NCBI GenBank assembly: GCA_032622095.1
Contig: CP136068.1
Coordinates: forward strand, 137,399,989-137,463,988
Source of the DNA: Siphonodentalium dalli
Taxonomy: Eukaryota > Mollusca > Scaphopoda > Gadilida > Siphonodentaliidae
Reading direction: 5' to 3'
DNA: 64,000 nt
This document shows positions 1,452-60,918 of this stretch, one piece after another; position 1 is the first letter of the stretch, and each line of letters opens with the position of its first letter. The position numbers and the translations under genes were made by a program. A model generated the notes under the pieces. The model was not told the origin of the DNA. It worked only from the letters and a program-made list of their open reading frames with translations, and ran no database searches.

Positions 1452-2848
1452 AGTAGTACGGGGGGCTCGTTCGCTTCACATCTAAAAATAGATTTTTTGG
1501 CGGTAAAATTGTTTGTACTAAAATATTCAAAAAAAAAAATTCAAAACCTAATATTTTTTTTCCAAAATTTTCAAAAAAAAGTTTTTAAAAATCTCAAAAA
1601 TTTATGAAACTTTGAGTTTTCGGTCTCTTACTGAAAATAATCTCGGTATTAAATGTCGAATGTTTTTAAATTATTTGCGTGTAATATCTTTTGTTATTGG
1701 CCAACTCTTTTTGTTCAGACAAATTTTAAATATTTTTCATGAAACTCTGTTAATTTTATTAATCGATGTTTAGAAATAGCTTTATACCAATTATATGTGT
1801 ATGGACTGGTCCGAGTCGCTGTAATTTTGGACATTGACACTATAGGTATGAATGCATACATTCCAGTGTTTATCATCAGACGCGATGTTTAGAAATAGCT
1901 TTATACAAATTATATGTGTATGGACTGGTCCGAGTCGCTGTAATTTTGGACATTGACACAATAGGTATGAATGCGTACATTCCAGTGTTTATCATCAGAC
2001 GCAGTCTCGTCTATTACATCATATAATTGTCTCCACAATACCTGAAATAATTTGACGCCATTACTCTTACATAAATAATAAAGAGCGTTTATTCTTTACT
2101 TCTCTATCCCGATGAAGTTATTGAGTATATGACACACGTGCATTATCGCGAATTATTGGAAGAATTATTGAGATGTTGTACTATTTTGAAAGCAGTCACG
2201 CTCAGACGAAGAGCGTGATGCGAAATTACTACCCCGAATGAACTGACATATTCTATGGAACAAATTTTCAATTATGTACACACACATAATCACACGCGTC
2301 AATAGGGTAACACTGTATAGGTCGAAAAAGAGTGACACCTTGGATAAATTGACCAAATGACTGCTATTATATCTGTTGACAGCTATGTGTGGTCCGACTC
2401 GTTCAATTAAGTTATCGATAGCTTGTCTGAACATCATTACTTGTTTAACGGGTTATGATCACGTAAGGTTGATAAGCTGTGTCATTGTTAGCATTAACGC
2501 GATAATTAGTTATCAAAAATATGCATACATAATACGTACATGTGATAAGACACTCAATAATAGAAGTTACCTTTTTTTGTTGTTATAACAACCTTACGTA
2601 ATAACCACTTATCGACCTATTCATACTTACGCTCATATATAATCTTATATAATGTTGCCTCATCTGTGCTAACTATTTTCGGGAGTTATGGTATACAAAT
2701 ATCTATGACGAAGCTTCCTTTTATGCATGTACAGACACGCTTTCAATTAAGCTATCGAAAAATAAAAATTGAATATTTTAGTACAAACAATTTTACCGCC
2801 AAAAAATATATTTTTAGATGTGAAGCGAACGAGCCCCCCGTACTACTT
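1452..2848. mobile_element. 1.4-kb element with 78-bp terminal inverted repeats
   Basis: The segment 1452-1529 (AGTAGTACGGGGGGCTCG onward) reappears inverted at 2771-2848 with only a few differences. The arms flank about 1.24 kb of AT-rich, apparently non-coding DNA containing a 119-bp tandem duplication. This is the layout of a non-autonomous TIR DNA transposon. The superfamily is unknown because no target-site duplication is evident next to the arms and no transposase frame is visible. Confidence 0.55.
1764..2001. repeat. 119-bp direct tandem duplication
   Basis: Two adjacent 119-bp copies (1764-1882 and 1883-2001) are almost identical, both starting CGATGTTTAGAAATAGC. They lie inside the 1452-2848 TIR element. 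Confidence 0.85.
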
Positions 2849-5343
2849 GTATCGTGAACAAACACAAGACCACAAGTGAACAGTCGCATAATACAATTTT
2901 CTACTGCAAATACGCTCCATAAACATGTATAGTATACCATACGTCTAATATGACCATACACTAGCGCAATTAACGGACCAAAGCTAAACCATTCACATGA
3001 GGGCAGCTGAGGCTTTTAATTAAAAAATTTAAATCTGTTTATAGATTCTCTGGTATTCCCACCAAATGGATTCACATAAGCCTATGTTCCTGTGGTGAAT
3101 GCCAGTAATTACGCTCCGCACGCAACGATTCGTCGAAAAAATCGACCTCCAATCGTAATTTCGAGTATAAATTAGGCCATTCGTACTTCCGGTAGTCTTG
3201 ATTGACAGCTATACTATACATGGTATACACTACCAACATCAAACTGAAAATAGTTATTCCTTGTCGAGAGGGGAACGGGAACATATTTACTGAATTCAAC
3301 CAATATATTTCTTAACGCTGGGTGAGTGCTGTGACTGAGATACTATATTGAGAAGCCTGTCCATTTACTAGCTGTTCATTTCATTCATAAGATATCACCG
3401 TGACGATTTCAATGAAAATCGACGAACACCATCGTGTAACGTTCCTCATTGACCGAGTTCGCCTGAACCGGCATGAATGTATCTACTGCTTTGTTCATAT
3501 TTATGTGTTTCCCTTCGATTCCAGAAAATAGTATATTTATGGATTATCACATGCATGTATGTACTAAATAAAATCTGTTATGATATAACAGTTAATTCCA
3601 TATTAAATATAAGTTATTTCGTTTCGCACAGTACCATACAGTACCAAGTGTTGTACAATAAAGGCCCACCTTAGCACAGTGATCGGTAACTTTGTGATGT
3701 CAATCTTATTATATTTCACATCACATATTTCGATCGCTTTTCACTCGCCCGCAGGGTGTAGAATGTAGTTACTATAGTGTCGTTATTTGTTGTATCTTAT
3801 TTTCTCAATAAACTGTAATCTAGAACGTTACTACCGCTACGAATGAACTTACATTCCAATTCAGGCAGTATTCATAATTCTCTTTTGCAATACCAGTAAT
3901 CTATAACCACAGTTACAAGATTCTCCGATTACGACATTAATGATTTAAGCCCTCCGATCTGCTGCGCGACAAAAGCGGTCGCACAAATTCAAAACAGCAG
4001 CGTCGTATTATATAATAATTGGTGACATACACACAATCAGATATAGTCTGTACGCGACCCAAAGCGTCCGGCTTTAGTTATAAACGGAAATCCGACTGAA
4101 CCATCCCAGTCAACAATGGGTCTGATAGGAGGTATTTATGTGAAATTCAGACTATCGTAAATCATGCCTAGATCATATCCGCTTGTTTCATGTATGTATA
4201 CACATGATAACATACGCCACACCCATAGAATGACCAGTGCGAGTTATTTCGGTTCATTCCTACTACATGTATAATACAAGCAGCAATACCCTGGTCATAT
4301 ATCGAGATTGACTTTGGTCGTTGATTGCGTCATAGTTTAAGACATACTTAAACAATATGAAGTTTACATGTGAACAATTTAGATCTCGTAGCGTCGTCGT
4401 TTCTTTCGCTGTATTGTATAAGTCCATTCCCGGACTATTCTCTGGCATAGTGTATCTGACTGACGACTGTCCGAATGACTTATCGACTGGTTGACCGAAC
4501 TGCTGATCGTTAATTTGCAAACGCTTATATACGTCACATGTTCACATAGCAATGTCAGCCATCAGCCGTGAAGGTTCGTGACTGTGGGACTGTGGATATT
4601 ATGTACATATGCCGTTCATAACTATATAACAATAGATGTAGTCTTCGTGTGACGGACAGTGGACATCAAGTCTGGTCACTCCCGCAATCGCACACGCAGC
4701 ACATCTGTCCCAATCCGTTATCCGTGTTGATACATGTAACTGCCACCCCAATATTGTCACAACAAGCAGCAATACTGAACAGACGAAAAGTAACGAACTA
4801 AAACTTTTCAACCACCACCACAAATCCAGATGTTGTTTGCGCATGCTCAATGAACAGGCAAACTAGCAATTGGATACCCAACTTACTGAAAGATAACTAT
4901 TTTCGCATGTCGGCAGCTTTAAGACATTTCTCTAATTTATCACCGAACAAGTATGAATATAGCAAAGTTAGTGCCAAACAAAAAATACACCGACGACGCA
5001 AGCAATATTAGAGGATAATGCATGCCAACATAGCGATTCGAGAGGAGGAATATCCACGAGCCGCATAATTTCCAACTGAACCTCCGTCCCTTGAACTGGA
5101 CCAACGGTCCCAATGTTTGGAGATTCCATTTGTACCCCATCGGTTGGACTATTCATCTTCGAGGTCCGCTGTTTTGGCATAGCCAATGACAAGAGTGCAT
5201 TGTTTATTATATTATACCAAATAATGGTGTCAGTTCTCACACAGTATCTGTGTCTGATTGTGTCTCATTTTATTTTCCACATTCTTGTTGCTGCATGATC
5301 GAGCGCAGTTCTCTCGTGTGCGTGTGCTGTTTGTGAGGTAATG

Positions 5344-6780: not shown

Positions 6781-8369
6781 CAGCTGTCGGGGTGTGTGTG
6801 CAGTAACGAAATTATAATTATAGATTGAGGGGTGGGTTATGGATGGAAGCGTGAGTTTTTATTATTTTCATAGGTCGTAATGTGGATGATTCATCATCAA
6901 CATCTCGCGGGTGTTTTTTGGGAAATGTCAAATATTCTTGTGTGCTTTCTACTCGAGGTTGCTTAGCTGGAGATAAATGAATATCTTTCGTAGCTTCATT
7001 GGGTAATGGTGGGGCTTGTCTCTCCGTGGCTGGTGTGTAAGGCTGTATCCCCGTGGTTGAGTTGAGTTGAGTTGTTTATACTGTCTGCCACACGCTTGTC
7101 ATGATTGTTAACATACCACCATAAACGCCCATGCGAATCGCATGCGGCCGTCTCTAGCGTTGTCCAATGGTATGATATCGCAGGTTAAAGGAGATTTCAA
7201 GCGAAAATGCATTTTTATTGTAAATTTGAGATTTGTCAATTAATATTATCAATGATAGGTGAATACACTGGAGTTATAATATCAAATGTCAGTAGTTGAC
7301 TCCAATTGATGCCATTTAGTGCACATATTGTGGGATAATTTCCTATAAAACGAACATTGTAAACAGGTACTTGTAGTAGACAACGACTGGACAATGTTTA
7401 GACTTTACCGTTGTTCTAATGTTCATGTAATATCAATTTGAACGGAAGTACTCCAGATTCACAATCATTTCTCCTCAACGGAAAGTTTTCCGCCATCTGT
7501 ACATTTATCCAGTGTATAACCCTAAACCGACAACACTGACCATGTAGCTGCTCTTAGTTAGCCGGAAGCGCTTCAATATATCAGATTCAGACGCTGACTT
7601 GCTGAGAGTCTGTATGTTGGTGTGACACATTGATCCGTATTTACAATTAAATGAAACACAACCAGAAGGAAACTTGGCGCGTTCTGGAAAAATGCAGTAT
7701 ATAGGATACGCCATAGGTCCACACGGACATGTTGTTGAATTTCGCCATCAGTAACAATTCGAGGAGGGTGGGTGGTTCGTCCTCGAAATTCACTACAATT
7801 CATCCGATGTTCACATTGGCCCGACGTCAGGTATTGGTGCGTCGTAAACTATCGTCTATTCGTTGTATGGGTTGTGGTGGATGATATCGATGACCATCGA
7901 TTGCTTGTTGACTCTAACTATGTATATTTGTGGACGCCGGTGCACTGGCGAAGATTCTACTCGATGTTCATTGCGAACTCCAGGCTTCTGGGACTGCAGA
8001 AGCTTGACTTGATGTGAATTACAATCAAATGACTATTGTTGCTTTCTGACATGCAAACAACCATCCTTCAAGATTCAAATTCTCAAATTAAAGGAATTTA
8101 TAATAGAGTTTGAAAAGTAACTTTCTTGTTCATTCTTTCTATGAGGGACATTGGAGTAGATATACCTGTAATTGGCCGATACGAGGCTAACACTGAATTT
8201 ATATTTTGTAAAAGAGGGTCGGTTTTACCCATACGCGGAAATCGTTTTCTTGCACGCTAGAGAACATACAGATTACCATTATTTTTTACCAAACCATGTT
8301 ATACGTTGCCCATATGAATATTCACATAACTGTAATTACAATTAAGCATAGTGGTCCGAATCGGCATCC
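6781..8369. other. Intergenic, no recognised gene
   Basis: Several 60-80 residue frames overlap on both strands around 7505-8017. None has domain features or splice signals that I trust. No repeat boundary is seen. Confidence 0.4.
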
Positions 8370-8780
8370 CTGGTTTAGACTATGATTTATTCTGGCATCG
8401 TTTTACTCTAGTTTGAACTAGGTTTTAGTAGGAGTAAAATTTGGTTTAACTGAAGTAAAACTAGGTTTTACGGGACTAAAACTATGTTTTAGTGTAGTTA
8501 AACCCAGTTTTGTGTTCAACTCAGTTTTAGTTTATGGAATTCGGTCTCAATTAAAACTAGGTTTTATTGGCGTGATAAAGTTATGGTAATATCGCTAATT
8601 GTTTGTGGTGAATTGGGGATATATCGATCAAGAGACGATTATTTATATCTGATTTATCCGTACCATACGTCTCATCTAAAAAAATATACTTTTAAATATA
8701 CTTTGGACACACATCAAAATAAAACAACCCTACCCCAGGTTTTACTAAAACCTAGTTTGGTGGGTTATATTATTCGGCCA
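8370..8780. repeat. Cluster of ACTAGGTTTTA / TAAAACCTAGT palindromic words
   Basis: Between 8395 and 8570 the sequence repeatedly alternates forms of ACTAGGTTTTA and its complement (AACTAGGTTTTA, GTAAAACTAGGTTTTA, CTAAAACTATGTTTTAG). Another such palindrome lies near 8745 (GGTTTTACTAAAACC). The spacing is irregular, so this is not a simple satellite. The result is a dense cluster of short cruciform-capable sites. Confidence 0.55.
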
Positions 8781-44699: not shown

Positions 44700-44910
44700 T
44701 GTTTCTTTCCGATTCAAGAACATATTAGATGCCATGTATTGCTGATATTTGAGACTGGAGGTTCTCCAATGAAGTTAAGTTGAACGACGAGAAAACGGAT
44801 GTAACACAGTATCAATTCAAGCTATTAAAATCTCCGCTGATACTCAAACGTGGTTTCAGTGCCATTACTACAAGAGAAAGACTTATAATTAGGAGTTGTT
44901 TTCGCAAATA

Positions 44911-45122
44911 TATAGCATAGCATTGTTACAAGAACATCTCTATATAGCATAGCATTGTTACAAGAACATCTCTATATAGCATAGCATTGTTACAAGAACA
45001 TCTCTATATAGCATAGCATTGTTACAAGAACATCTCTATATAGCATAGCATTGTTACAAGAACATCTCTATATAGCATAGCATTGTTACAAGAACATCTC
45101 TATATAGCATAGCATTGTTACA
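44911..45122. repeat. 32-bp satellite, about 6.6 copies
   Basis: Exact head-to-tail repeats of a 32-bp unit (TATAGCATAGCATTGTTACA then AGAACATCTCTA) with virtually no variation, so recently amplified. There are no unique spacers, so it is not a CRISPR-like array. It ends about 350 bp before the Ngaro-type element. Confidence 0.95.
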
Positions 45123-45473
45123 TTGTTGGCAAGCGCGTGACAATAGCGTGTGCCAGGCATGCAACATTCACCTGCGGAATATTAGCACACTAGAATTCGC
45201 AAATACCTGACCCTCGAAGTAACCAGCACATCACAAAAGCGTGACCAAGAACACCAATTGTCAAATAATTACATTGGTTACCTACTGAGTATCGAATCAC
45301 ATTTAAATTCTCAGTGCTTCCGTTTAAGGAGAGATATGGCATGGTATGGTACTTGTTTAATGACACTGGGTCTACACTGCAAGTCGTTGAAAACCGTGTC
45401 CGATATGATCGCGACATCTGCTGTCGTGACCGCAATGACATGCTGCAATCTTCCCCACCCCATGTAACAGTTA

Positions 45474-45636
45474 TTTATCCCACATGGTCATATGATAACA
45501 ACGAAAGGTTTGCCTGAATGACTACCTTTAATGATGAATGAAAGGAAATTAGAACAGGTAGCCGAAACATATTGGTCTAAACTTTAGGATTTCATCTAAT
45601 CCAAATTTACGCCCTTTTTTGGTCCCGCAAGCGCCA
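45474..45636 (-). repeat. Split direct repeat B2 (3' end of element)
   Basis: A 163-bp copy of B1 forming the 3' terminus. Its outer boundary is set by loss of identity with B1 at TTTATCCC (45474). Confidence 0.9.
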
Positions 45637-45790
45637 CGTCACAGAATAAAGAAGCTATCCGCAACAGAGTGGAGTCCTAAAGCATGGGAACAACCTGGAA
45701 ATAACTAGCTGAACATATGGGTTAAGTAACGTCTCTGAAAGGAAATTTAAATGTCAAAGGTCGAATTGCACCTCAAGGGTGGGAGGGCGG

Positions 45791-46183
45791 GAGCAAAGTA
45801 AACCGACTTATATATGAATTCGGAGCTAACAAAAAGGCCGTGACCTTGTACTTTCCATATTAAGCCGCTTCCGAAATATAGGTCCGTTATCACTGGCCCA
45901 AGGGCCTTCATTTAATGATTGAATAGTACATGGATAACCTAACAAGAATTGAGAAGAAAGTAAAACCCAGTACTGTTGAGAATTTGTATTCGTGATTAGG
46001 GAAATTAACATTCATGTATCACTGAGCGCACTTTAGTTTAGTGAAAGCGCTTGCCCGTGTTAATGACGTATGATCTTGCATCGGTTCTATTTATAGTTAT
46101 ATAAACACTGGGGTGCACATGTTCAATTACGGATCAGTGTGGCATGACTCTGAGGGATAAATGTGTCGCTGTGCAACTCTGTT
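45791..46183 (-). repeat. Split direct repeat A2
   Basis: Internal copy of A1 lying between B1 and B2. The 154 bp between A2 and B2 (45637-45790) have no counterpart elsewhere in the element. Confidence 0.9.
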
Positions 46184-46345
46184 TTATCCCACATGGTCAT
46201 ATGATAACAACGAAAGGTTTGCCTGAATGACTACCTTTAATGATGAATGAAAGGAAATTAGAACAGGTAGCCGAAACATATTGGTCTAAACTTTAGGATT
46301 TCATCTAATCCAAATTTACGCCCTTTTTTGGTCCCACAAGCGCCA
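46183..46345 (-). repeat. Split direct repeat B1
   Basis: A 163-bp copy of B2 with essentially one substitution near its inner end. It directly abuts A2; the junction reads CTCTGTTTTATCCC on the plus strand. Confidence 0.9.
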
Positions 46346-46957
46346 TAGTCGAAGTGCATGCGGTAACAAGCATTTCGACCCCGCCAAAAAAGCTAACCGG
46401 GGAACGCATCCACTCTGGCAAATGATCAGAACTTACACCCCCCCCCCCCAATTTATCCACCCAGAAATTTTCTAAAAATTATAATTCATGGGACAAAATC
46501 TCCCCGCTACCTGCTGAATGAAAGCAGAGGCATGAAACATATATACATGTACATCACACAACATCCGGATGATATAACTATATTCACCCGGCATAGTAAC
46601 AATGGCATAACATTGGAAAAATGTAACGGTATAACATTTGAATGATATATCTCTATTTATACACATCCTAGACTAGAGACACAGACCCACTTTAATCAGT
46701 GCCATAATTCGAGCAAACTACCTATATACACAGAAAGAGTATGCTATGAATAAATTGCACATCTCGCTCAAACGAAGATATGCCACCCCTGACCACCTCA
46801 TGAAATTAACATGAATACAATGACTTATTATCATATATCTATGTATATTATTATTAGTAAACCAAAGGCTGACCTTGCACAAGCAAAGGGCAGGTGCTAT
46901 TGAGACTACAATGTACTACACTCGCTCAAACGAAGTGCAGCAAAAAAATTTACTATA

Positions 46958-47905
46958 TCAGTCCCTAATGTAGGTGAGAAAAGCGTTTGATTTCCATCTG
47001 CCCATAAGTCTGATTTGGGCATCCGAATATCCCCTCTTAGCCGCCCAGCATGCTCCACCGATACGAAAACTATGAGGTGTAATCAGAATGTGATCTAATG
47101 CACAAAAATTAAGGCATGTTTTAAGAACAGACTCAAATTGGGCATATACTACTGGATACCCGCTTGGCAATCCGAACAGTGGACCAGGGTGGTCTCCCCT
47201 GCAGTGTAAGTATGTCCTCATCGCCCTGATGGCACAAATAGGGCTGTTTTGTCCATCAATGTGAATGTTATGTGGTCTTGCCCCGATGTTATGTTTGAAG
47301 TGGCTGAATATTAAAGTCATTCGGTGTTTACCCCTTGAAATACTAACATCCCCAAATTGGATAACTTTATTTTTACCGCTTAATGTTGTCAGACAGAACT
47401 CACCAATCCTCGCAAAGGCAAAAAATGCAGATGTGAATGCTGCCCGGTACAGGGCTCGAGCATATTGTGTGTTTACTACTACATCCAAAGAATCCAGAAG
47501 TTTCCTAAGGATATTTGGAGTAATTGGCTTGCGGCGATCTGGGCATGAACGCAACCTCTTGGTACCCACCAACATCTTCTGTATCTTAAAGTCTGATACC
47601 GGGTCTGGGAAGTTCTGCAATTTATGAAAATAGGTGATGGCTGATAACATAGACCGAATTGTGCTATAGGCCAGGCCTTTCCTGTATAGATAAGCTGTGA
47701 ATAGAGAAATTGTCTCGGTGGTAGCTGGGAAAGGCTGAGAGGCGATATCCGTATAAAATGATATGTAGTTACTGCGCACCCTGGCATACGTTGCATGAGT
47801 ACGGGGTGCTAGGCCATTGTAAAGCAGGAAATTCACAGTTTCAGTAAGTTCTCCAACTTTAGCTCTGCAGGTACCGGAACAGGATTTGGTTGTGCTCCCG
47901 GGCAT
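46958..47905 (-). CDS. Tyrosine recombinase (YR) of the Ngaro-type element
   Basis: An intact 315-residue frame. The N-terminal SAM-like half (about 17-110) has YARVRSNYISFYTDI and STIRSMLSAITYFH. The catalytic half contains the full active site: R166 (FARIGEFCL), H278 and R281 (TPHSFRIGG), W304 (MGRWKS) and the nucleophile Y312 (LTYIR), three residues before the end. It replaces the integrase of LTR elements and inserts the circular cDNA by site-specific strand exchange in the nucleus. Its start overlaps the end of the RT-RNase H frame by about 70 bp in another frame, so translation probably depends on reinitiation or frameshifting. It appears functional. Confidence 0.9.
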   Translation of the reverse strand: MPGSTTKSCSGTCRAKVGELTETVNFLLYNGLAPRTHATYARVRSNYISFYTDIASQPFPATTETISLFTAYLYRKGLAYSTIRSMLSAITYFHKLQNFPDPVSDFKIQKMLVGTKRLRSCPDRRKPITPNILRKLLDSLDVVVNTQYARALYRAAFTSAFFAFARIGEFCLTTLSGKNKVIQFGDVSISRGKHRMTLIFSHFKHNIGARPHNIHIDGQNSPICAIRAMRTYLHCRGDHPGPLFGLPSGYPVVYAQFESVLKTCLNFCALDHILITPHSFRIGGACWAAKRGYSDAQIRLMGRWKSNAFLTYIRD

Positions 47906-49429
47906 AGCCTCCGGAATGCCTGAAATTGAAACCTACTAACCAGATCAGCCTGAATATTTTCAACACCCGGTATATACATTGCCCTAAACTGTATATTATG
48001 GACTAAACAAGACAAAACCAAAATTCTCAGAAGCTCCAAGAGCTTAGTATCTCGTGTTGTTTGTTTGTTAACTATACTAACTACTGATTGGTTGTCTGAG
48101 TGAAAAAGTATTCGTCTATTACTAAGTTCATGCCCCCATATTTTGATTGCTAACATAATTGGATAAAATTCAAGAATTGCAATATTCAACTTCTTCTCCT
48201 CTGGCTGCCAAGGAACTACTAACCATTTTGAGCCCAAAATTGCCCCACAACCATTTGCACCTGAAGCATCAGTCCAGAGGTGTATTGCTTGGTTAGTTTC
48301 CCAAGGTTTGTTGAAGAAAAATGACTTCCCATTAAAGGACTGAAGAAATGATAACCATATCCTGAGATCAGCTTTAACGATGTGAGTTACTCGAATTTTG
48401 TGATGTGCTTTTTTGACACCAACTGTTAAATTAATCAGCCGCCGTAGAAATGCTCGCCCTGGTATTATCACAGAGCATGTAAAACTGAGAAGGCCAATCA
48501 ATGACTGGAACTCTCTGAGCGTAGCTTTCCTCCGTTGGAGAAACATTTCGATGAAATTTTTACACTTGGCTAACTTTTCCATCGGGAGACGTGCAGACAT
48601 TGTTGCTATGTCCAACTCAATGCCAAGAAATGTTATGGTCTGCGCTGGTAAAACCGTTTTTTCCTCTGCTAATGGGACCCCCAAATAATCACAAACATCT
48701 AACGCGGTCTTCAGACTATTCTCGCAAGCCCTATGACCCCTCTCCAGAACCAGGAAATCATCTAACACATGCACCATTCGCCCTACGCCAACGCTTAGGA
48801 AAATCCAGGACAAAGCTGTACTAAAACGCTCAAAAATGAAGCAGCTTGACCGACCCCCCATTGGGAGACATCTGTCAAAGTAATAATTTTTTTCAAAATG
48901 GATCCCGAGCTGGGGGTAGTTCAATGGGTGTACTGCGAGTTGTCTGAATGAATTTCTGATATCAAATTTTGCCAAAAAGCATGAAGGGCCGATATCTGTA
49001 ATAATTGAGATTGCATCTTGGATGGTTTCATAGGAAACTGATGAAATTTACTGAGAATCCATGTGGAAATGAAAGGTGATGAATTAGGCGATAAGTGCCC
49101 GGGGTTGATTTTTCAACAAGACCAATAGGTGAGATAATTAAATTGTCAAAAGGAGGCTGGTAAAATGGCCCAGCAATTCTGCCTGCTAATACCTCTTTAT
49201 TCAACTTCTCTGCTACTATGTCTGGATTTTCCAAAGCAGATTTAAGGTTTCCTGCATGGCCTGAAGTTGCAGTTTGGGAACCCATGTCAAAACCAATTTC
49301 AAAACCTTTTATCACAAATTCCCCCAAAGTTTTGTCATAGCCATCAAGCATTTCGCGCAGTCTATTTACTCTGATTGGCGTTGGGAGCTGACAGACTTCT
49401 GCGTTGTTTTGCACCTGCGGACGACACAA
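47833..49429 (-). pseudogene. Reverse transcriptase-RNase H with one frameshift
   Basis: The N-terminal part (49429-49028) contains the RT entry region (PFYQPPFDNLIISPIGLVEK, then RLIHHLSFP). The rest (48975-47833, open further upstream without a Met) has KFDIRNSFRQLAVHP (motif A), LPMGGRSSCFIFERF (motif B), VHVLDDFL (catalytic DD at 72-73 of that frame), and RNase H with WTDASGANGCGA (D236), E269 and HSDNQSVV (D294). These are DIRS/Ngaro-type signatures. The two parts are in different frames, with the break near 49045-49060, just after SVNF. Upstream it overlaps the Gag frame by about 70 bp, and downstream the recombinase frame by a similar amount. The frameshift should abolish activity unless it is a sequencing error. 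Confidence 0.85.
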
Positions 49430-50606
49430 ATCCAGCTCCCTTGCCTCGAAAGGTTGAATTTGGCTGAGAAGTCCCTTTAGAACAATTTATAGCTTTATGC
49501 AGAGATCCACATTTGAAACATTTGTGGTTATAACTGCATTGGCTAAAGGAACAAAACACCCCCCCCCCCCCCCCATGGTACCTCTTACAAAATCCAACAG
49601 GTACATGGTTATCAGAGCCAAACTGGTTATTTTGTTTCCTTTGATCATTATAGATCCTGTTACCGACAGGTGCCGAGAGAGCCCTTGGCTCTTTTGCCCG
49701 CATATACAGCTCCCAATGCCAGCAGTCCCACCCCATCCCCGGGTTATGTTGATGTAACTCTCGAAATGATCTATCATAAAATACCCAATCTGCTCTTATG
49801 GATGCCAAATGTCTAATGTTCGACTGATATTTTATCATTGGAATAGCAGACTGGGGGAACTTTTCCAAATAAACAGACATGTAGATCTCGTAGGCATCCA
49901 GCCACCTCTCAATGGTAGAAATAACTTTAGGTTCAGCTGGTGCTGATGACAAGACCTTCCCAACAGGGGTGTCAATCCACCGGGCCTGTACAGGGGATCG
50001 GGTGGGAGCTGCTGGCAGTAATGTTGAAAATTCAATATATTCATCACCCCATATTTTACCCTTAACTTTACTAGAAATTGAAGCACTCAATGGTATAGAA
50101 ATTGATTGAAATTGACTGGTTGACGGGGATACTCCTGCATCCCGCTCAAGCGAGGAAGCAGAAGCACCCAGAACAGGTTTGACTGGAGACATAAATGAAT
50201 ATATAGGGTCTTCAGAAACATCGGAATCTGTCATGGAGTGACTTGAAGAATGACTAGGTGAACTACCTGGCAAAGACTGCTGTCTGGAACGCTTACGACC
50301 CCGTTTAGGGGGTGATGCACATGGCCTCGATCCGCGTGCCCGAGAATGTGAACTTGACTGTTCACGTCTTTGATTAGTCTGAAAGACAGTACGCCCATGG
50401 GGAGTCTGCCTTGTTGTATCCGAACTAACACGAGTAGATGTTTGAGCATGTCCACGATTTGATTGACGGGTACGACCCCGTTGCTGCGGCCCCGAAGCCT
50501 GATTACAGGAGCTCATGGGCTCTGATCGCGACTGCCTTCTATTAGCAAGAGCAGTGGCACGGCGTGTAGCTACCACTCTCTCCCTTGGACGACCACGACC
50601 TGGCAT
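49362..50606 (-). CDS. Gag-like protein of the Ngaro-type element
   Basis: An intact 414-residue frame. The N-terminal 120 residues are highly basic and Ser/Arg/Gln-rich (low complexity, nucleic-acid binding or nuclear). The middle (about 205-320) has the conserved DIRS/Ngaro Gag pattern: RWLDAYEIYMSVYLEKFP, then MIKYQSNIRHLASI, WVFYDRSFRE and WDCWHWELY. Near the C-terminus is a Cys/His cluster (GFCKRYHGG, CSFSQCSYNHKCFKCG and HKAINC), a zinc-binding nucleocapsid-like module. An uninterrupted G run on the coding strand (C run at about 49558-49573) encodes the glycines inside this module, so the frame is exposed to slippage. The start at 50606 is the first Met, 1.2 kb downstream of the SGNH stop. 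Confidence 0.85.
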   Translation of the reverse strand: MPGRGRPRERVVATRRATALANRRQSRSEPMSSCNQASGPQQRGRTRQSNRGHAQTSTRVSSDTTRQTPHGRTVFQTNQRREQSSSHSRARGSRPCASPPKRGRKRSRQQSLPGSSPSHSSSHSMTDSDVSEDPIYSFMSPVKPVLGASASSLERDAGVSPSTSQFQSISIPLSASISSKVKGKIWGDEYIEFSTLLPAAPTRSPVQARWIDTPVGKVLSSAPAEPKVISTIERWLDAYEIYMSVYLEKFPQSAIPMIKYQSNIRHLASIRADWVFYDRSFRELHQHNPGMGWDCWHWELYMRAKEPRALSAPVGNRIYNDQRKQNNQFGSDNHVPVGFCKRYHGGGGGVFCSFSQCSYNHKCFKCGSLHKAINCSKGTSQPNSTFRGKGAGFVSSAGAKQRRSLSAPNANQSK

Positions 50607-51824
50607 CTCTAATTACACTGGTAAGTCACAACAGCAGAAGTGGATCTGGTAGAAATTATACCTGGTGTGAATATTAAAGAATATTCATTATTCAAGATGA
50701 AAAGTATACATGGATAGTGTGACAATTGATGAGTAACTTGACAGGAAAATGTCTTTGCTGGTTGTAAATCAACATGGTAAGATTAATTATCCCACAGCTT
50801 GAATAATGACTCATGCTTGCCCAAATCATAGACTAAACCCCAAAAATATGTACTGATACGCCTTACTTTGAATTTGTTACAAGACTTGACCTAGGCGTAT
50901 AAGAACAAGCATACCAGTATTACACGGCACTGCTGAAAGTTTACGCGTCCTGCTGTAGATGTGCAATTTGTTTGCGTAACTTGTCCGAAGCGTCGGAGGA
51001 GCAAGTCAAACCTACCAAAAGTTTACGCGCACTATAGGTGTACTGATTTTTTCATGACTTGTCCGAAGCGTCGGAGAAGCAAGTCAGGCTTGACCTATGC
51101 GTAGGAGAACAAGCCATACCAAAAGTTTACGCGTCCTGTACATGTGCCATTTGTTTGCATGACCTGTCCGAAGCGTCGGAGGAGCAAGTCAAACCTACTG
51201 AAAGTGGAGGGGGAAAGTCAAACCTACTGAAAGTTTACACACACAACATATGTATAAATTTATATATGACTTGTCCGAAGCGTCGGAGAAGCAAGTCAGG
51301 CTTGACCTAGTATAACAAGCCATGTTTAATGTGCGATTTGATATATGACTTGTCCGATGCGTCGGAGAAACAAGTCAATATTATAGTAGTGAATAGCTGT
51401 AAATTACTACATTTGCTGTACGATTTATCAGATGACATGTCCAAAGCGTTGGAGAAGCAAGCCATATATATAAAACCATGTTATGGTATACAAAGTTTAC
51501 GCACATCGTTGAAATGTACAAGTTGTTAAATTGACTTGCCAAAAGAGTTGGATAAGCAAGTAGAACACGCCATACATATATAAATTATATATTAGTCTTA
51601 TACAAGTAACCTCTAAAGCTACTGGCAATAGGCCGTAATCTAGACGTCACGACTAAGAGAGTTTGAGGCTTCAAGAAAATGAAAAGCAATATGGAACATA
51701 AATATCACAATATAATCATTTTAAAGTTGAAAAACTTTCAACATTCAAACCGAATAGTTGAATGTATGTATTATTACCACTCACATATGAAGTTATAAAC
51801 AAACTGGAACCAGGGATCAGCAGA
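50607..51824 (-). other. Non-coding interval between SGNH and Gag
   Basis: A 1.2-kb interval inside the element with no credible protein frame. Its centre (50883-51561) is the hairpin array described separately. The flanks are AT-rich. Confidence 0.6.
50883..51561 (-). ncRNA. Array of about nine conserved hairpins (candidate RNA structure)
   Basis: On the plus strand each unit has outer stem GACTTG/CAAGTC, inner stem TCCGA/TCGGA, loop AGCG and a 3-4 base bulge (GAAG or GGAG). Clear copies: 50979-51006, 51056-51085, 51087-51115, 51161-51190, 51268-51297, 51347-51376, 51434-51463, 51533-51561. Decayed copies: about 50883-50909 and 51299-51321. Stems differ by paired changes: inner TCCAA/TTGGA at 51434, CCTA/TAGG at 51087, CCAA/TTGG at 51533, and outer GGCTTG/CAAGCC at 51087. 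Loops stay NGCG or close to it. Several units are followed by AAAGTTTACGCG. The inverted sequence folds equally on the element's sense strand. Role unknown: packaging, internal ribosome entry or dimerisation are possible. Confidence 0.5.
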
Positions 51825-52478
51825 CTAATGGTGATTAAGATAATAGAGCAAGGCTCCCCGGATTCCCCAGTAATATTTCTGTGTTCCCTTTCGGTTAAAG
51901 TGGACACCATCACTGAGGAAATGTCTCACCGCCCGCTCTAACCTAGTCTGGTTCCATAACAGACACCCAGCCCGATCCTCCAAGTAGACCCCGAGCATAC
52001 GGTTTGTGAGATCTATTCTATCATTCAGAGCCTCCAAAGTCAGCCCAGGGGATTTAAATCTTGTAGAAAGCTCTGTTCTTTTGAATAATCGGTTAACAAA
52101 TACTGCGGACACCCCAAAATGCTCCTGCAGCTCTGACACATAAGACTCTATATCGCTTGAAACTACCTCTGGGCCTTTTGAGCATAAATCATTTGCCCCA
52201 ACTTGAAGCACCACCAAGTATGGTCGAAACCGCTGCAGAGTTTTTTGCACCGCGGAATCTGCCCGGAGTTTATTTACCGTGGCCCCAGAACGACCCACCA
52301 ATCGAACGCACACCTGCCTCGTTCTGATTTTCCCTGCCGCACGCTGTCTGTGGCTTTTAAGATTAAACTCTCTGGCAAAATTATGCCATAGAGGAAATTT
52401 CCGACACCCTGTACCCCCATATAGATGCGCCCCAAAACGTGTTACGAACGAATGCCCTAAAACGAGAAGGCGAACCAT
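51825..52478 (-). CDS. SGNH-family hydrolase of the Ngaro-type element
   Basis: The frame extends upstream to 52553, but the Met at 52478 is preferred because it lies just inside the A1 boundary and immediately precedes strand 1. Numbering from the 52553 frame, the family blocks are VLGHSF (nucleophile S35; GHS in place of GDS), VGRSGATV (block II Gly), LQVGANDLC (block III, N121) and DGVHFNRKG (block V, D215 and H218). All four catalytic positions are kept. SGNH domains occur as accessory enzymes (lipid or acyl-ester hydrolases) in some CR1 LINEs and some Ngaro elements. Here it is the 5'-most gene, ahead of Gag. Its role in the element's cycle is unknown. Confidence 0.8.
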   Translation of the reverse strand: MVRLLVLGHSFVTRFGAHLYGGTGCRKFPLWHNFAREFNLKSHRQRAAGKIRTRQVCVRLVGRSGATVNKLRADSAVQKTLQRFRPYLVVLQVGANDLCSKGPEVVSSDIESYVSELQEHFGVSAVFVNRLFKRTELSTRFKSPGLTLEALNDRIDLTNRMLGVYLEDRAGCLLWNQTRLERAVRHFLSDGVHFNRKGTQKYYWGIRGALLYYLNHH

Positions 52479-52511
52479 CGCGTGACTGGCAGCAAAAAAT
52501 ATAAAAACTAC

Positions 52512-52905
52512 GAGCAAAGTAAACCGACTTATATATGAATTCGGAGCTAACAAAAAGGCCGTGACCTTGTACTTTCCATATTAAGCCGCTTCCGAAATAT
52601 AGGTCCGTTATCACTGGCCCAAGGGCCTTCATTTAATGATTGAATAGTACATGGATAACCTAAACAAGAATTGAGAAGAAAGTAAAACCCAGTACTGTTG
52701 AGAATTTGTATTCGTGATTAGGGAAATTAACATTCATGTATCACTGAGCGCACTTTAGTTTAGTGAAAGCGCTTGCCCGTGTTAATGACGTATGATCTTG
52801 CATCGGTTCTATTTATAGTTATATAAACACTGGGGTGCACATGTTCAATTACGGATCAGTGTGGCATGACTCTGAGGGATAAATGTGTCGCCGTGCAACT
52901 CTGTT
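52512..52905 (-). repeat. Split direct repeat A1 (5' end of element)
   Basis: Matches A2 with one single-base indel and a few substitutions. It holds the presumed promoter and the 5' terminus at 52905 (AACAGAG on the minus strand). The upstream Met codons of the SGNH frame fall in this repeat. Confidence 0.9.
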
Positions 52906-53379
52906 GTATCAGTTATTATCTGTTCATCTCGGAAATATTTATTGGTGTTTCTACAACATTTATACAGAAATTCAGAGGTTCAAACTATGTGGAATTAAAA
53001 TTAGGGCATCCGACATCATAAATAGAGAAACTTGGAGAATAATGAATCAAGTGGTTATCAACACGTGGCTGTAGTACGAGGTTTTGGGAAGTCTCCGATG
53101 ATATCATCCGGATGTTCCCCAAACTCACACATCTACTAATCTTCATCACTTGGACAATGGTTTCGGGAGCCATGCGACTCTCTCTCTCTCTCTGGCCCCT
53201 GGAGGACTCGCTCTGTATTTTCCCTGAACAATTTAATTTTGTTGACTTCTTGCCTTTATATCGCCATAACCCTGATATCCATAACAGCGAACATTAGCCC
53301 ATCTGGCCCGTGGAAATGATGCATTGTTTGTGTTGTTATTTTGGTTATTATTCTGCTTAATGTATCTCTCTTGTATTCA
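52906..53379. other. Flank of the Ngaro-type element
   Basis: No gene of its own. From about 53170 the minus strand can be read as the tail of a degenerate Gag remnant, listed next. A short (TC)n run is at 53191-53204. Confidence 0.4.
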
Positions 53380-54181
53380 TTATTTGGGGATTTTCTGATT
53401 ATTATATCGATTTGGTGTGTCTTTATAATTAAAACATTGTGGTTTGTTTTGTTGAGGGCCTTTATTTGAGTTCTTGACCGGAGGAATGTCCTGGTGAGTG
53501 ACTTGGTGTATTGACACTTGGGGGTTTAATTGTGATATAAATTGTCCAATTCCCGTTGTCAATTGGGTAATATCAATACAAATCTTAGATTTCAATTGAT
53601 TGATATCCCCTTGGAGACTACCAATTACGTCGTCTTTCTCATGGGCGAGAGACGCTGTCGGCATTCCAATTTCCCATCCTCATTGATAACAAGTTCCGGT
53701 ACTATTCTGTGCATGCATAATGGCATGACGAAAGTCGTTGTTTCTCTATAACTCAAACCCTGTCATAATCTCGCGGCCAGATAGCCCTACACCCACACAA
53801 AACCTTTCCCCAAAACAGTAATTAATACTTGACCCCGGTATTGGTGTCTGGCCGGTGAACATACATGTACACTAGTGCTGCGTGTACGATGACGACGACT
53901 TTGGTTGTGTTCCCTCGTTACAGTGGAGATGGTGAAATGATATTACAAGCAGTCGGTGACCTGTATTTACGGTGTCGATGAGTGTTTCGGTGTTTACCCT
54001 GTCGTGATGACTGAGCAGGGTACATATTTCCCTCTTGACTTTGAAGACACTTTCTAACATAATCTGGTTGAACGCTGTTGGTGAGCCCCTGGTTAAAACT
54101 TCCTTCCTTCAACCAACTACTTTTTCTGCTTATCATTTCATTTTTCCTTCTGATCTGATGAAACTTGCTCTGTGTAAACAA
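53230..54181 (-). pseudogene. Degenerate retroelement Gag with mutated zinc knuckles
   Basis: The minus-strand frame 53664-53380 is hydrophilic, with a Gln/Asn/Pro-rich stretch followed by PQCFNYKDTPNRYNNQ. Beyond a stop, another frame continues with ARWANVRCYGYQGYGDIKARS. Both resemble CCHC knuckles (CxxCxxxGHxxxxC) in which most Cys/His positions are mutated, chiefly Cys to Tyr. The upstream frame 54181-53918 is basic and may be part of the same element. No RT or terminal repeat is seen. The call is tentative. Confidence 0.35.
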
Positions 54182-56901: not shown

Positions 56902-58221
56902 CTATTGACGAGCTACCACACAGTCGGGACATCTTTGATTGTTGCATTTAATTGTTGCAGCATATTTTTTAATGCAATCGGCATGTACACGGCGTTTGAA
57001 TGTGTGTCTGGATTGGTATGATGTAAATTCATTATCCAAGTTGTTCCATGTAGTTGGATAAGAATGGAATGGTAGTTGTTGGGACCAAGTTGTTCTTGGT
57101 TTTTTGTTAAATAGTGGGTGCTTTTGCCGGGTGTCTGGTCCGTTTTTGCGTTTGGTAAACATGTCGGTGAATGATTCTATTAAGCGCATATGATACCAAT
57201 CATGCATGAAAACAGCCGCTTGGACTTTGTGGATGTCGTATATTTTGAGTATATTTTCTTTTTTAAAAAGAGGTTCTGTGTGGCTTCTATATTTTTTATT
57301 ACATAAAACTCGTATCGCGCGTTTTTGAAGCATGAAAATTTTTTTGACCGCAGGGACGTGTCCCCATATTTGAACACCGTAGACAAGATGGCTTTGTATT
57401 AGAGCATAGTATAATGTTTTAAGTGCGCTACCAGGAAAGAAGTGTTTAACTTTATTGATGTGGTATATGGCGTTCACCATTTTAGAACAAACAGAGGACA
57501 CATGTTTTTTGAAAGTCAGGTTTTCATCAATATGGATTCCTAAGAATTTTGTGGAGGATTCGTGCTCAAGATTTCCTATCTTTTTAAGTTCTGTATTATT
57601 CAAGTAAACTTTTATAAAGTTCCATTTGTCATCATTGTTCTCTGGGTGTATTAGCATATAGTTGCTTTTTTTAGTATTGATCACTAACTTATTGCTACAG
57701 CACCAAGCAAATATGTTGCGTAACTCATTATTCACATAACTTTCTACAAGGATGCCATTTTTTCCACCAGTTACTAGAGTAGTATCGTCCGCGTATGATA
57801 AGATATCCATGGTTGTCGAATTTGACATATCGTTAACGTAAATTAAGAAAATTATCGGTCCGAGAATTGATCCCTGGGGCACTCCACACGTCACTTCCGT
57901 TAAATTAGATTTGTTACCATTGAGTTCAACATATTGCCTTCTATTTTGCAGATAACTCTGAAACCATGAATATGCTGTGCCTCGTATGCCATAGTGATCT
58001 AGTTTATGAAGTAAAATATCGTGGTTTATCGTGTCAAATGCTTTTGAGAGGTCGAGAAATAGAGCTAAAGTTGAGTCTCTTGTCATTTTGTCATTATTTG
58101 AGACAACTTGATCGAGGAGGTCTAATACAGGATGGAAAGTTGAATGATGAGGGCGGAAGCCGTATTGGTGTTTATAGAGTATGTTTTGTTCATTTAAAAA
58201 GTCTAGTAATCGTTTATGCAT
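56902..58221 (-). CDS. LINE ORF2 continuation, reverse transcriptase
   Basis: A 439-residue frame that continues the endonuclease frame after the frameshift; its first Met is not a natural start. Motifs in order: YGFRPHHST, ALFLDLSKAFDTINHD (catalytic D57), GVPQGSILGPIIFLIYVNDM, LSYADDTTLV (catalytic DD at 145-146), and the thumb region with FLGIHIDENLTFKKH and HLVYGVQIWG. The C-terminus has CNNQRCPDC, a small Cys cluster. Copies reverse transcripts onto nicked target DNA. Confidence 0.85.
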   Translation of the reverse strand: MHKRLLDFLNEQNILYKHQYGFRPHHSTFHPVLDLLDQVVSNNDKMTRDSTLALFLDLSKAFDTINHDILLHKLDHYGIRGTAYSWFQSYLQNRRQYVELNGNKSNLTEVTCGVPQGSILGPIIFLIYVNDMSNSTTMDILSYADDTTLVTGGKNGILVESYVNNELRNIFAWCCSNKLVINTKKSNYMLIHPENNDDKWNFIKVYLNNTELKKIGNLEHESSTKFLGIHIDENLTFKKHVSSVCSKMVNAIYHINKVKHFFPGSALKTLYYALIQSHLVYGVQIWGHVPAVKKIFMLQKRAIRVLCNKKYRSHTEPLFKKENILKIYDIHKVQAAVFMHDWYHMRLIESFTDMFTKRKNGPDTRQKHPLFNKKPRTTWSQQLPFHSYPTTWNNLDNEFTSYQSRHTFKRRVHADCIKKYAATIKCNNQRCPDCVVARQ

Positions 58222-60038
58222 TATTTTTTCGAGGATTTTAGAGATAGCTGGAAGAATGCTGATAGGTCTGTAGTTGGAAATTCATGAGTGGTAGTATTTT
58301 TAGGGATTGGGACTACTTTAGAAATTTTCATTTTGTTAGGGACTATTCCATGCTTTAAGGACAAGTTAAAAATATGCAACAATGCTGGCGCTATCTCCTC
58401 AATTGTTTCCTTGATAAGTTTAGTTGATATACCATTGAAATCCCTTGATACTTTCCCAGTCATAGAGAAACATGTGAGGATGATCTCCTGTATAGACGTC
58501 GGAATTATTTTGAAATTTATGTCGTCTGGTTTGCGGTTATGGAGAAATTCTGTAAAATGAGAGTCATTTTCATGTTCATTGAGTTGGCTAGTTTCCCGCC
58601 CAATTTTTGAGAAAAAGTCATTGAACTTTTCCGATATGAGTTTGGAATTTTCAAGTTCTATTCCGTTTTCGGTAAAGGTCTTGGGGTTATTATTTGTGTT
58701 TACATTTATTTTCAATGCACCCTTAAGTATTTCCCATGTTTTCTTTAAGTTATTTTTATTTACTTCTAAGATATTTGTGTAGTATATATTTTTACTCCTT
58801 CTGATTAGTTTATTATATAGGGTACGATAAATCAAATATTTATTTACGTTCGTTTCCGTGGGTTTATTCAATTTGCGTACATATAACTGATTTTTAACAA
58901 TACTTGACTTAATCAATCCAGATGTCATCCAAGGTTCGCGTTTTATGAATTTTTTGGGTATATGTCGACTTTTGATGGGGAAAGCTAGTTCATATGCATT
59001 CATATATATATCTAAGAAGATTTCATATGCTTGGTCGACACTTCTACAGGATGTAACGGAGTCAAAGGTACAAGAATTTAAAAAAAATTTGAATCTAATT
59101 ATATTATCAGGACTAAAACTTCTTTGGTTAGTGATAGTTTCATTATTATTGGGGCTGTTTTGTCTCTTTTGGTTAGATTCGGAATAAAATATGCCGAAGT
59201 GATCGGAAACGTCGCATGTGATTATGCCAGATTTACATTCGCCTTGTAGGTTATTGGTATATATATTATCGATGAGAGTTGCTGAATGATCAGTCATTCG
59301 AGTAGGTTTAGTTATCCTTGGCACGAATCCTCTTGTGAAAATGTTATTTATGAAGTCATTCGTTTTCGTATGCGAGTTGAAATTGAGTAGGTCAATATTA
59401 AAGTCTCCTGATATATATGAGTTGTGGTTATTAATTTTTTCTAGAATATCGTCGAATTTTTTTAAAAATTGATCAATGTTGGCCTTTGGTGCGGTATTTG
59501 GTCTGTAAACGCAGCCGATTATCCGAGAGTCATTTTTTCCTGGGTTAATTTCCACGAATATTGTTTCTATTACGTGTGGAATAAATTCACTAAGGTCGGG
59601 TCGATTTTTATAGTGAATGGAATCTTTTATGTAAAGGCACACACCACCTCTACCATCATCGTCATCAGCTCTACACTTGAATTCCATAGGGTGATATCCC
59701 GGTATTTGAAAGTGCGATGCTTGTCGTATTTTAAATGTTTCAGTTAAAGCAATAACGTCGAATGAATTATTATTAGACTTTAAGTCGCATAGGAGATTAC
59801 ACAAAGAATCGAAATTTGCATTGATGCTTCGACAGTTGAGGCTGAATACTGAAAATTTTGGTTTTTTATTTGATTGATCTATAGTGTGAGATGGTGAAAT
59901 GTATCCACATTCATTGCAAGTATTAATAGCAGAATTTAAATAGTCGTCATTTTCCTGTTCCGCTTCGTTCCATTTCATTGTAAAGTTATATTCATCAGAA
60001 TCCCGAACCTCACTCAGATTTATGTTATGTGTAGCCAT
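58221..60038 (-). CDS. LINE ORF2, endonuclease and start of RT
   Basis: A 605-residue frame. It begins with a short acidic segment, then the endonuclease: FSLNCRSINANFDSL, IALTETFK (catalytic Glu), DDGRGGVCLYI, GCVYRPN, YISGDFNIDLL (catalytic Asp and Asn) and VSDHFGIF (catalytic Asp-His). A linker of about 220 residues follows, then the entry into RT (GISTKLIKE, HGIVPNKMKISKVVPIPK). The last 20 residues are out of frame because of the break near 58270-58285. The endonuclease nicks target DNA to prime reverse transcription. Confidence 0.85.
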   Translation of the reverse strand: MATHNINLSEVRDSDEYNFTMKWNEAEQENDDYLNSAINTCNECGYISPSHTIDQSNKKPKFSVFSLNCRSINANFDSLCNLLCDLKSNNNSFDVIALTETFKIRQASHFQIPGYHPMEFKCRADDDDGRGGVCLYIKDSIHYKNRPDLSEFIPHVIETIFVEINPGKNDSRIIGCVYRPNTAPKANIDQFLKKFDDILEKINNHNSYISGDFNIDLLNFNSHTKTNDFINNIFTRGFVPRITKPTRMTDHSATLIDNIYTNNLQGECKSGIITCDVSDHFGIFYSESNQKRQNSPNNNETITNQRSFSPDNIIRFKFFLNSCTFDSVTSCRSVDQAYEIFLDIYMNAYELAFPIKSRHIPKKFIKREPWMTSGLIKSSIVKNQLYVRKLNKPTETNVNKYLIYRTLYNKLIRRSKNIYYTNILEVNKNNLKKTWEILKGALKINVNTNNNPKTFTENGIELENSKLISEKFNDFFSKIGRETSQLNEHENDSHFTEFLHNRKPDDINFKIIPTSIQEIILTCFSMTGKVSRDFNGISTKLIKETIEEIAPALLHIFNLSLKHGIVPNKMKISKVVPIPKNTTTHEFPTTDLSAFFQLSLKSSKK

Positions 60039-60045
60039 GAATACG

Positions 60046-60918
60046 ACCTATAATGGAATGGATGAAATGTATGCCCTCCATTTCAGAATGAATTAAAGAT
60101 GCAAGCATGAATATGCATAGTCCGTGCATTGTTACTAGATCTAACCGTGATATGATGTACATATTATTTTAATGATGTGTTGTATTCGGCGGGTATATGT
60201 TTCTGGTAAGTCCTCGAGTACGAATCAATGATTCAATAGACGGTCAATTAACATTTCAAGTTCCGCTTGTTATTTTCTCATGAAAGTGTTGCCAAAAAGT
60301 TCATATATGTGACTTGACGTGTATGCTATCTAATTGACCCGCAACGAGGACTTACGTCATAGTAGAAATAGATAACTCCATAATATACGAGGTATATATA
60401 TAGACCTATATGGTTAAATGTATGAGTGTGGGCCAATATGTTGAAAATACATGAACAAGAACCTATAATTAATAAAACATGAAGATTCATAAATGAATGT
60501 ATATGTATGGTACACCGACTTCTGATTATATTTGACAAAGCATAATTTGATTTCAAAAGAAATCTAAATTCATGAATAATTCGTCTTAATAGAGTTGACT
60601 TGATTGTGCTCGGAATGTTTTGGACCTGACTGTACTGTCACAACATGACCTAATTCAATAATAATAAATGTCAAGGTCAATTTGATGACCTCGGATTCGT
60701 AAAATATCGGCTTATTAATCTCGGCTTATACGAACAAAGTGTTCTAATAATAATTATTACTGTTCCAGAGTAGAACGACATGCGTCAAATTTAAGCCTTG
60801 TTGTCATCTAAGCATAACATGTCAGTTGTGCTGATATATAAATGAAAGAGGCATAACTTGACATGTATCAAACATATATTTTATGTTTAATCCACGTAGG
60901 CTTTGTTATATACGCTGT
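60046..60918. other. Intronic, no recognised gene
   Basis: AT-rich, no coding frame with recognisable motifs. A few bases of the LINE 5' region may extend here, but the boundary is not visible. Confidence 0.4.

Follow-up and report, generated by a model that had tools for sequence, protein, structure and literature searches.

In the window analyzed here, a stretch of 64,000 nucleotides from the scaphopod Siphonodentalium dalli, a retrotransposon carries a series of short hairpins in the gap between two of its genes. A sequence-only reading of the window had taken paired base changes in these hairpins as a sign of selection on RNA structure. The locus raises the question of what such an array is for and of whether it is a part of the element or a satellite of its own.

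The Host Element

The hairpins are located in an Ngaro-type element of the DIRS order (Table 1). The element had the features that define Ngaro elements, namely split direct repeats in the arrangement A1-ORFs-B1A2B2, a reverse transcriptase (RT) with RNase H, and a tyrosine recombinase. In sense reading, the order was A1, SGNH, a gap of 1.2 kb, gag, RT/RNase H, tyrosine recombinase, B1, A2, and B2. No DDE integrase family was present among the Pfam matches of the element's four ORFs, and a Pfam search with the gag ORF returned no match. The original Ngaro papers are reportedly those of Goodwin and Poulter. SGNH was placed between A1 and gag, an order that a circular intermediate would make equivalent to one with SGNH after the tyrosine recombinase.

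Searching the assembly (2.23 Gb, nine contigs) with the array interval gave 24 matches from 20 candidates, all of which were scored. Six of the matches, including the window's own, were 99-100% identical over the full query; the rest were 76-100% identical, and several were short. Outside the element, a perfect 32-bp tandem repeat of 6.7 copies was observed at 44909-45122, approximately 340 bp past the 3' end, and two long minus-strand ORFs at 56902-60047 resembled, by eye, the endonuclease and RT of a non-LTR retrotransposon.

Table 1. Features of the element and its hairpin units, in window coordinates.
Feature	Positions	Strand	Basis or remark
Ngaro-type (DIRS order) tyrosine-recombinase retrotransposon	45463-52910	minus	split direct repeats, domains, near-identical copies of the array interval
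Terminal repeat A1	52512-52910	minus	direct repeat of A2, 99-100% identical
Terminal repeat A2	45791-46188	minus	pairs with A1
Terminal repeat B1	46172-46345	minus	97% identical to B2
Terminal repeat B2	45463-45636	minus	pairs with B1
SGNH/GDSL hydrolase ORF, 251 aa	51825-52580	minus	Pfam PF13472, E 4.9e-9
gag ORF	49362-50612	minus	Arg-rich N-terminus and zinc-knuckle-like CX2CX3HX4C, by eye
Reverse transcriptase/RNase H	47833-49047	minus	PF00078, E 6.3e-9; PF17917, 21.4 bits, E 0.00028, below cut-off of 24.8
Tyrosine recombinase	46958-47932	minus	PF13495, 26.8 bits, just below cut-off of 27; Cre, E 0.0018; HSFR and Tyr by eye
Hairpin U1	51531-51564	minus	weak, loop CTCT; covariance model 25 bits
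Hairpin U2	51434-51463	minus	inner TCCAA/TTGGA, one T-T mismatch; covariance model match
Hairpin U3	51347-51376	minus	covariance model match
Relic hairpin U3b	51299-51325	minus	inner part shortened
Hairpin U4	51268-51297	minus	covariance model 39.1 bits
Hairpin U5	51161-51190	minus	covariance model match
Hairpin U6, type B	51087-51115	minus	adjoins U7 as a doublet; uncalled by covariance model
Hairpin U7, type A	51056-51085	minus	covariance model match
Hairpin U8	50978-51007	minus	covariance model match
Hairpin U9, type B	50883-50911	minus	inner stem partly broken; covariance model match

The Hairpin Array

About nine 30-nt hairpins had been claimed for the interval between SGNH and gag, and nine of approximately this length were indeed located there, together with one relic. 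Each consists of an outer stem, a T-rich bulge of 2-4 nt, a CCNA/TNGG inner stem, and a CGCN loop; the genes are encoded on the minus strand, so the bulge lies on the 5' side in sense reading. The common form (type A) reads GACTTG-CTTC-TCCGA-CGCT-TCGGA-CAAGTC in sense, and type B reads GGCTTG-TTC-TCCTA-CGCA-TAGGT-CAAGCC. The paired changes described at 51434 (TCCAA/TTGGA) and at 51087 (CCTA/TAGG in the inner stem, GGCTTG/CAAGCC in the outer) were seen as described. The loop was nearly constant as claimed (CGCN in eight of nine, with CTCT at 51533 as the exception), but the bulge was less so, with five variants (CTTC, CTCC, TTTC, CTTA, and TTC).

The weaker units were found at the two array ends (51533 and 50883). 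The starts of the six best copies were 78-107 nt apart, which makes the series a degenerate tandem array. A covariance model was built from 34 units of family 1, to which the window element belongs, and family 2, described below. It called eight of the nine window hairpins, which are largely part of its training set. Every one of these calls was on the minus strand; the E value of the next best match in the window was 0.22.

Covariation and Divergence

Pairing was evaluated by exchanging 3' arms among units; bulge length was unconstrained both in the true combinations and in the swapped ones. Among 100,000 permutations, three attained the true level of pairing in a set of 10 family-2 units, and none did so in the set of all 18 units. 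Of the 10 family-2 units, three (c, x, and g) paired better with the arm of another unit than with their own. For single arrays the true level was reached in 4 (L043), 32 (L041), 7 (L045), 2 (L046), 6 (L019), and 0 (L027) of 20,000 permutations; the arrays of L041, L043, L045, and L046, being related copies, do not count as independent. The diverged array L042 gave no support (5189 of 20,000).

A sequence alignment of 34 units, which sets short-bulge family-2 units out of register and is thereby biased against structure, contained 32 pair cells changed on both sides versus 13.7 ± 3.0 expected (0 of 500 shuffles). The proportion of paired cells (77.7% vs. 68.4%) and the covariation score (0.295 vs. 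0.158) were likewise reached in none of 500 shuffles, and the number of further pair types (23 vs. 18.5) in three. Pairs showing at least one both-side change were not unusually numerous (7 vs. 5.6, 111 of 500 shuffles). Sliding the partner lowered both the changed cells and the covariation score. The outer stems vary between hairpins yet stay paired, a compensatory covariation that was significant on most measures. Given the arm swap without a single success in 100,000 and the excess of doubly changed cells, the lack of significant covariation that the sequence-only reading had named as evidence against itself was not observed.

Hairpins diverged significantly more slowly than spacers in four of ten comparisons, with p values uncorrected for the ten tests: the window copy with L013 (7.0 vs. 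18.0%, p = 0.0005) and with L010 (2.9 vs. 8.8%, p = 0.002), L043 with L042 (14.5 vs. 24.8%, p = 0.005), and L019 with L027 (5.2 vs. 11.1%, p = 0.012). The remaining six were not significant, and L043 with L045 ran in the opposite direction (hairpins 9.5%, spacers 7.0%). Tandem homogenization could contribute to the lower divergence of the hairpins.

Genomic Distribution

The presence of the hairpins elsewhere in the genome was investigated using three patterns, which are blind to hairpins having another core. Allowing at most three mismatches, a 26-mer hairpin pattern occurred at 67 places, all of them, by eye, in or beside copies of the window element; the reversed control occurred at none. 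A looser core pattern occurred at 30 places (control 0), comprising eight in family 1, 13 in family 2 (counting locus L044, with gag 52% identical), five in a family designated F4, three in a minisatellite, and one lone weak match (L049). The third pattern, with up to one mismatch, occurred at 70 places (control 0), and by eye all 70 were in DNA matched by the F4 array or in family-2 loci. A genome search with the F4 array itself gave at least 71 matches (40 of 42 candidates scored), with the element ends examined in a minority of places.

With every place of the 26-mer and third patterns in element or array DNA, an independent satellite was not found, and the possibility raised by the sequence-only reading, that the hairpins occur mainly outside the element, did not hold. 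Loci L047 and L048 were rejected as array members. L048 contains an unrelated 22-nt minisatellite at 2021-2478, which resembles the hairpin core by chance, and L047 matches L048.

Relatives Carrying Genes

Family 2 is related to the window element at 51-66% identity in SGNH, 50-66% in gag, and 70-74% in RT (RT in five of seven loci). A sequence-only HMM, built from the nine window hairpins and blind to pairing, matched between SGNH and gag in all seven family-2 loci, with the best E value per locus ranging from 0.0008 to 0.007. The core of the family-2 hairpins, CCTACGCNTAGG, is common with that of the window element, and the outer stems differ, CGTCTTG/CAAGACG, TGCCTG/CAGGCA, and GACGGG/CTCGTC being among them. 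The covariance model gave 44 matches in family 2, some of them its own training units, and all were in sense. The same hairpin is present between SGNH and gag in family 2.

Family 3 has an RT that is 62-63% identical (seven of nine loci) and was outside the training set of the covariance model. The model gave 16 weak matches over all nine loci (E 0.002-0.29), all in sense. The same hairpin is probably present between SGNH and gag in this family as well; we go no further than probably because the 16 matches reduce to two orthologous hairpins. The sequence-only HMM, at E ≤ 5, matched in none of the nine family-3 loci or of six loci of more distant families, and the covariance model, at E ≤ 1, in none of six loci of more distant Ngaro families or in the array-less copy L018. 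Of the home originally proposed for the array, the placement between SGNH and gag of an Ngaro-type element stood, but the array is not restricted to this element family.

Two further observations were made on these loci and on F4. The family-3 locus L021 carries imperfect tandem repeats of its own between SGNH and gag (217-687, starts 153-172 nt apart), in which other hairpins are possible. A pyrimidine-pyrimidine mismatch was kept at the same place in the outer stem (GGCTTGG/CCACGCC type) in L043 at 1421 and 2362 and in L027 at 1246.

Gene-Less Families

Family F4, found through the core-pattern search, and the related family F5 are gene-less in the sense that no match was detectable by tblastn, the limit being proteins too diverged for that method. 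Searches with RT, gag, tyrosine recombinase, and SGNH gave no credible match in the F4 copies L043 and L045 (best E 0.32 over 23 residues) and none up to E 1 in the F5 copy L059. A Pfam search with nine L041 and L043 ORFs (97-162 aa) was likewise without a match at E ≤ 0.1. These three copies, L043, L045, and L059, are nevertheless bounded by split direct repeats in the order A1-B1-A2-B2; L058 was without A2 and B2. The L043 copy is 7.4 kb long, with an A1 of 396 bp and a B1 of 123 bp followed by A2 and B2, and its array lies approximately 3.6 kb after A1. L059 spans 7.8 kb (A1 724-1116, B1 7694-7849, A2 7848-8241, B2 8358-8512).

The covariance model gave 56 hairpin matches over five F4 loci, 9-13 in each, with 55 in sense and one 12-nt antisense scrap; the orientation of L041, L042, and L046 was taken from alignment to L043. 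In F5 (L058-L060), all 29 matches were in sense. We compared whole F4 and F5 elements by blastn (E ≤ 1e-3) with all of family 1 and with family-2 pieces, which cover little of gag, RT, and the tyrosine recombinase, and found only the terminal B region and the hairpins in common. Between the F4 terminal B repeat and that of family 1, two blocks (38 and 31 bp) aligned at 87% identity. At the same threshold, nothing was common with the family-1 A1-SGNH, gag, and RT-tyrosine recombinase regions or with the family-3 pieces. We infer that the gene-less elements are moved in trans. A packaging signal is expected to be kept in elements mobilized in trans, and the array is present in these gene-less elements with split direct repeats.

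Recent changes in the arrays were also seen, with four tandem hairpin-bearing units of about 200 bp, approximately 95% alike, in L060 at 2505-3298 (a recent array expansion) and a 361-bp duplication of the array in L058 and L059. The F4 A repeat was 94-100% identical in the 40 scored of 368 genome candidates. F4 seems to have been very successful without genes, and it may include many solo repeats.

Folding of the Array

The 701-nt array stretch folded with a z-score of -3.16 on the minus (gene) strand, with none of 20 shuffles as good, and of -1.76 on the plus strand, with one of 20 as good. The doublet of adjoining hairpins at 51056-51115 had a z-score of -4.09. Four single units, two each from families 1 and 2, were folded on both strands and gave z-scores from -1.9 to -3.8. 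Three of the four were predicted to take the proposed form in sense, and family-2 unit f preferred a fold without the bulge and inner stem. Both strands were about equal in these units, and folding energy was rejected as a strand test.

Pairs of the G-U type outnumbered A-C pairs by 34 to 8 in the hairpins (p = 3e-5 against 50%). In a swapped-arm control for composition the G-U fraction was 0.71, against which the excess had a p value of 0.11 (0.3-0.7 by family), and it was withdrawn as evidence for RNA. Of the claim of selection on RNA structure, the covariation remains; the G-U excess, which did not exceed this control, lends no support to the assignment to RNA. The folded strand may be either RNA or single-stranded cDNA; G-U counts and folding energies favor neither, because the G-U excess is not above that from composition, the strands fold about equally well, and the common sense orientation of the hairpins is shared by descent.

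Proposed Function and Alternatives

We consider the odds slightly in favor of the array serving a lineage of Ngaro elements as a cis-acting recognition site built of several hairpin copies and read in trans; Gag, acting in packaging, would be the most likely reader. The constant position of the bulge, the constant loop, the covarying stems, and the retention of the array where genes are gone point to a cis-acting recognition element. Packaging would be its best-fitting use and the likeliest one by analogy and in view of the Arg-rich start and zinc-knuckle-like motif seen in Gag by eye. An element-encoded protein, most likely Gag, would bind the hairpins by bulge and CGCN loop on genomic RNA, several copies at once and some of them as adjoining doublets. 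Binding would pick array-bearing RNA for packaging and reverse transcription, and gene-less elements would retain the array since it makes them substrates in trans. Classical packaging signals lie at the 5' end, and the internal position of the array counts against this use. An Arg-rich Gag N-terminus was rejected as a correlate of the array, with strongly basic starts in all six hairpin-less Ngaro loci (Arg-rich in L033-L035, Lys/Arg-basic in L032, L039, and L040).

In a broader formulation, the array of bulged CGCN hairpins would be a modular "address", read as folded single strands, that decides which transcripts of the lineage are copied. Its reader could be Gag on genomic RNA or the tyrosine recombinase on cDNA, as happens at integron attC sites; taken jointly, we give this formulation a little less than an even chance.

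Several other explanations would also account for hairpins in this position. Retroviral constitutive transport elements recruit a host factor for RNA export, and the hairpins could similarly recruit a host factor with which unspliced element RNA leaves the nucleus, or is stabilized. Such an element would likewise act in cis, be present in several copies, and be required by elements lacking genes. A host-factor site might, however, be expected to show stronger sequence conservation than is seen in the variable outer stems, and no Rfam family matched in the stretches scanned; we regard this as unlikely. It is more doubtful still that the hairpins are folded single-stranded cDNA sites for the element's own tyrosine recombinase, comparable to integron attC hairpins with extrahelical bases. 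The element does encode such an enzyme, array length changes by tandem units, the four tested units fold about equally on both strands, and the pair counts show no preference for RNA once composition is controlled; the recombinase would, however, be expected to act at the element ends, which are the split direct repeats and not the array. Lowest of all we place control of gag translation by ribosome entry or through the leader, an option in the sequence-only reading that matches the position of the array ahead of gag, after SGNH, in families 1, 2, and probably 3. It is disfavored by elements without detectable gag that keep arrays of 9-13 model matches.

Two explanations dispense with a folded single strand as the functional form, and we hold both to be very improbable. 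Were the hairpins double-stranded DNA dyads for a transcription factor, as part of an internal promoter or enhancer, the near-palindromic inner core (CCTA-CGCN-TAGG) would fit; outer arms that change sequence and keep complementarity would be unexpected of a dyad, as would a persistent one-sided bulge of 2-4 nt. The array might also have no function, its arms being kept matched by tandem homogenization and by palindrome correction through template switching. The tandem, expanding arrays (such as the ~200-bp units of L060) and the six comparisons without significantly slower hairpins agree with this, but template correction should erase the bulge, which persists across families. Moreover, the hairpin is the sole internal DNA found in common between the gene-less families and family 1 or the family-2 pieces. 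Recognition by an element-encoded protein, most likely Gag, accordingly remains the reading that we prefer.

Comparison with Known Systems

Retroviral packaging signals, MS2-type hairpins, and the TAR and boxB hairpins are RNA elements bound by proteins. Like TAR, the window hairpin has a 5' pyrimidine bulge and a short upper stem. Unlike all of these, the array is internal, has a putative partner, and is without an Rfam match at gathering score in the stretches scanned (window 46000-54000, L019, L021, and L043), where the one sub-threshold match per scan scored 15.4 of 37 bits in the window and 18 of 50 bits in the three loci. Integron attC sites are imperfect hairpins with extrahelical bases, arranged in arrays. 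The hairpins described here share these properties, and a tyrosine recombinase is encoded in the same element, but the element ends are elsewhere than the hairpins.

In the literature on DIRS and Ngaro elements, as far as open-access coverage and the available parts of the texts extend (PMC9210276, PMC8547959, PMC6681497, PMC10294476, PMC3266345, PMC3783388, PMC4157794), no such hairpin array is reported. Within the same limits, the open-access literature searched holds no description of how tyrosine-recombinase retrotransposons recognize their own RNA. Within that partly available literature, the DIRS order is without a described internal cis-acting signal, and the modular address, if correct, would be the first. 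A covarying motif kept by gene-less elements offers a defined, mutable target for the question of RNA self-recognition, the set includes dozens of natural variants with stems already altered by evolution, and additional non-autonomous Ngaro elements can be sought with the motif as a marker.

Among the closest known systems are the Ngaro-like elements DIRS-53_XT and DIRS-54_XT of Xenopus, which have split direct repeats (A1...B1A2B2) and gag, RT/RH, tyrosine recombinase, and SGNH ORFs (PMC9210276). The window element has the same repeats and genes. In amphibian Ngaro elements, however, SGNH is described as following the tyrosine recombinase, and the ORFs of the Xenopus elements are said to overlap, whereas in the window element SGNH is placed between A1 and gag and is followed by the 1.2 kb gap that holds the hairpins. 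Neither "hairpin" nor "tandem repeat" is used in the main text of that paper (PMC9210276). The gene-less families have a parallel in SIRE, which PMC6681497 describes as a non-autonomous derivative of VIPER, short and composed of both ends and some 30 bp besides. F4 and F5 resemble SIRE as gene-less derivatives of a tyrosine-recombinase retrotransposon with shared ends, and differ from it, as described there, in being 7.4-7.8 kb long and in carrying the hairpin array inside.
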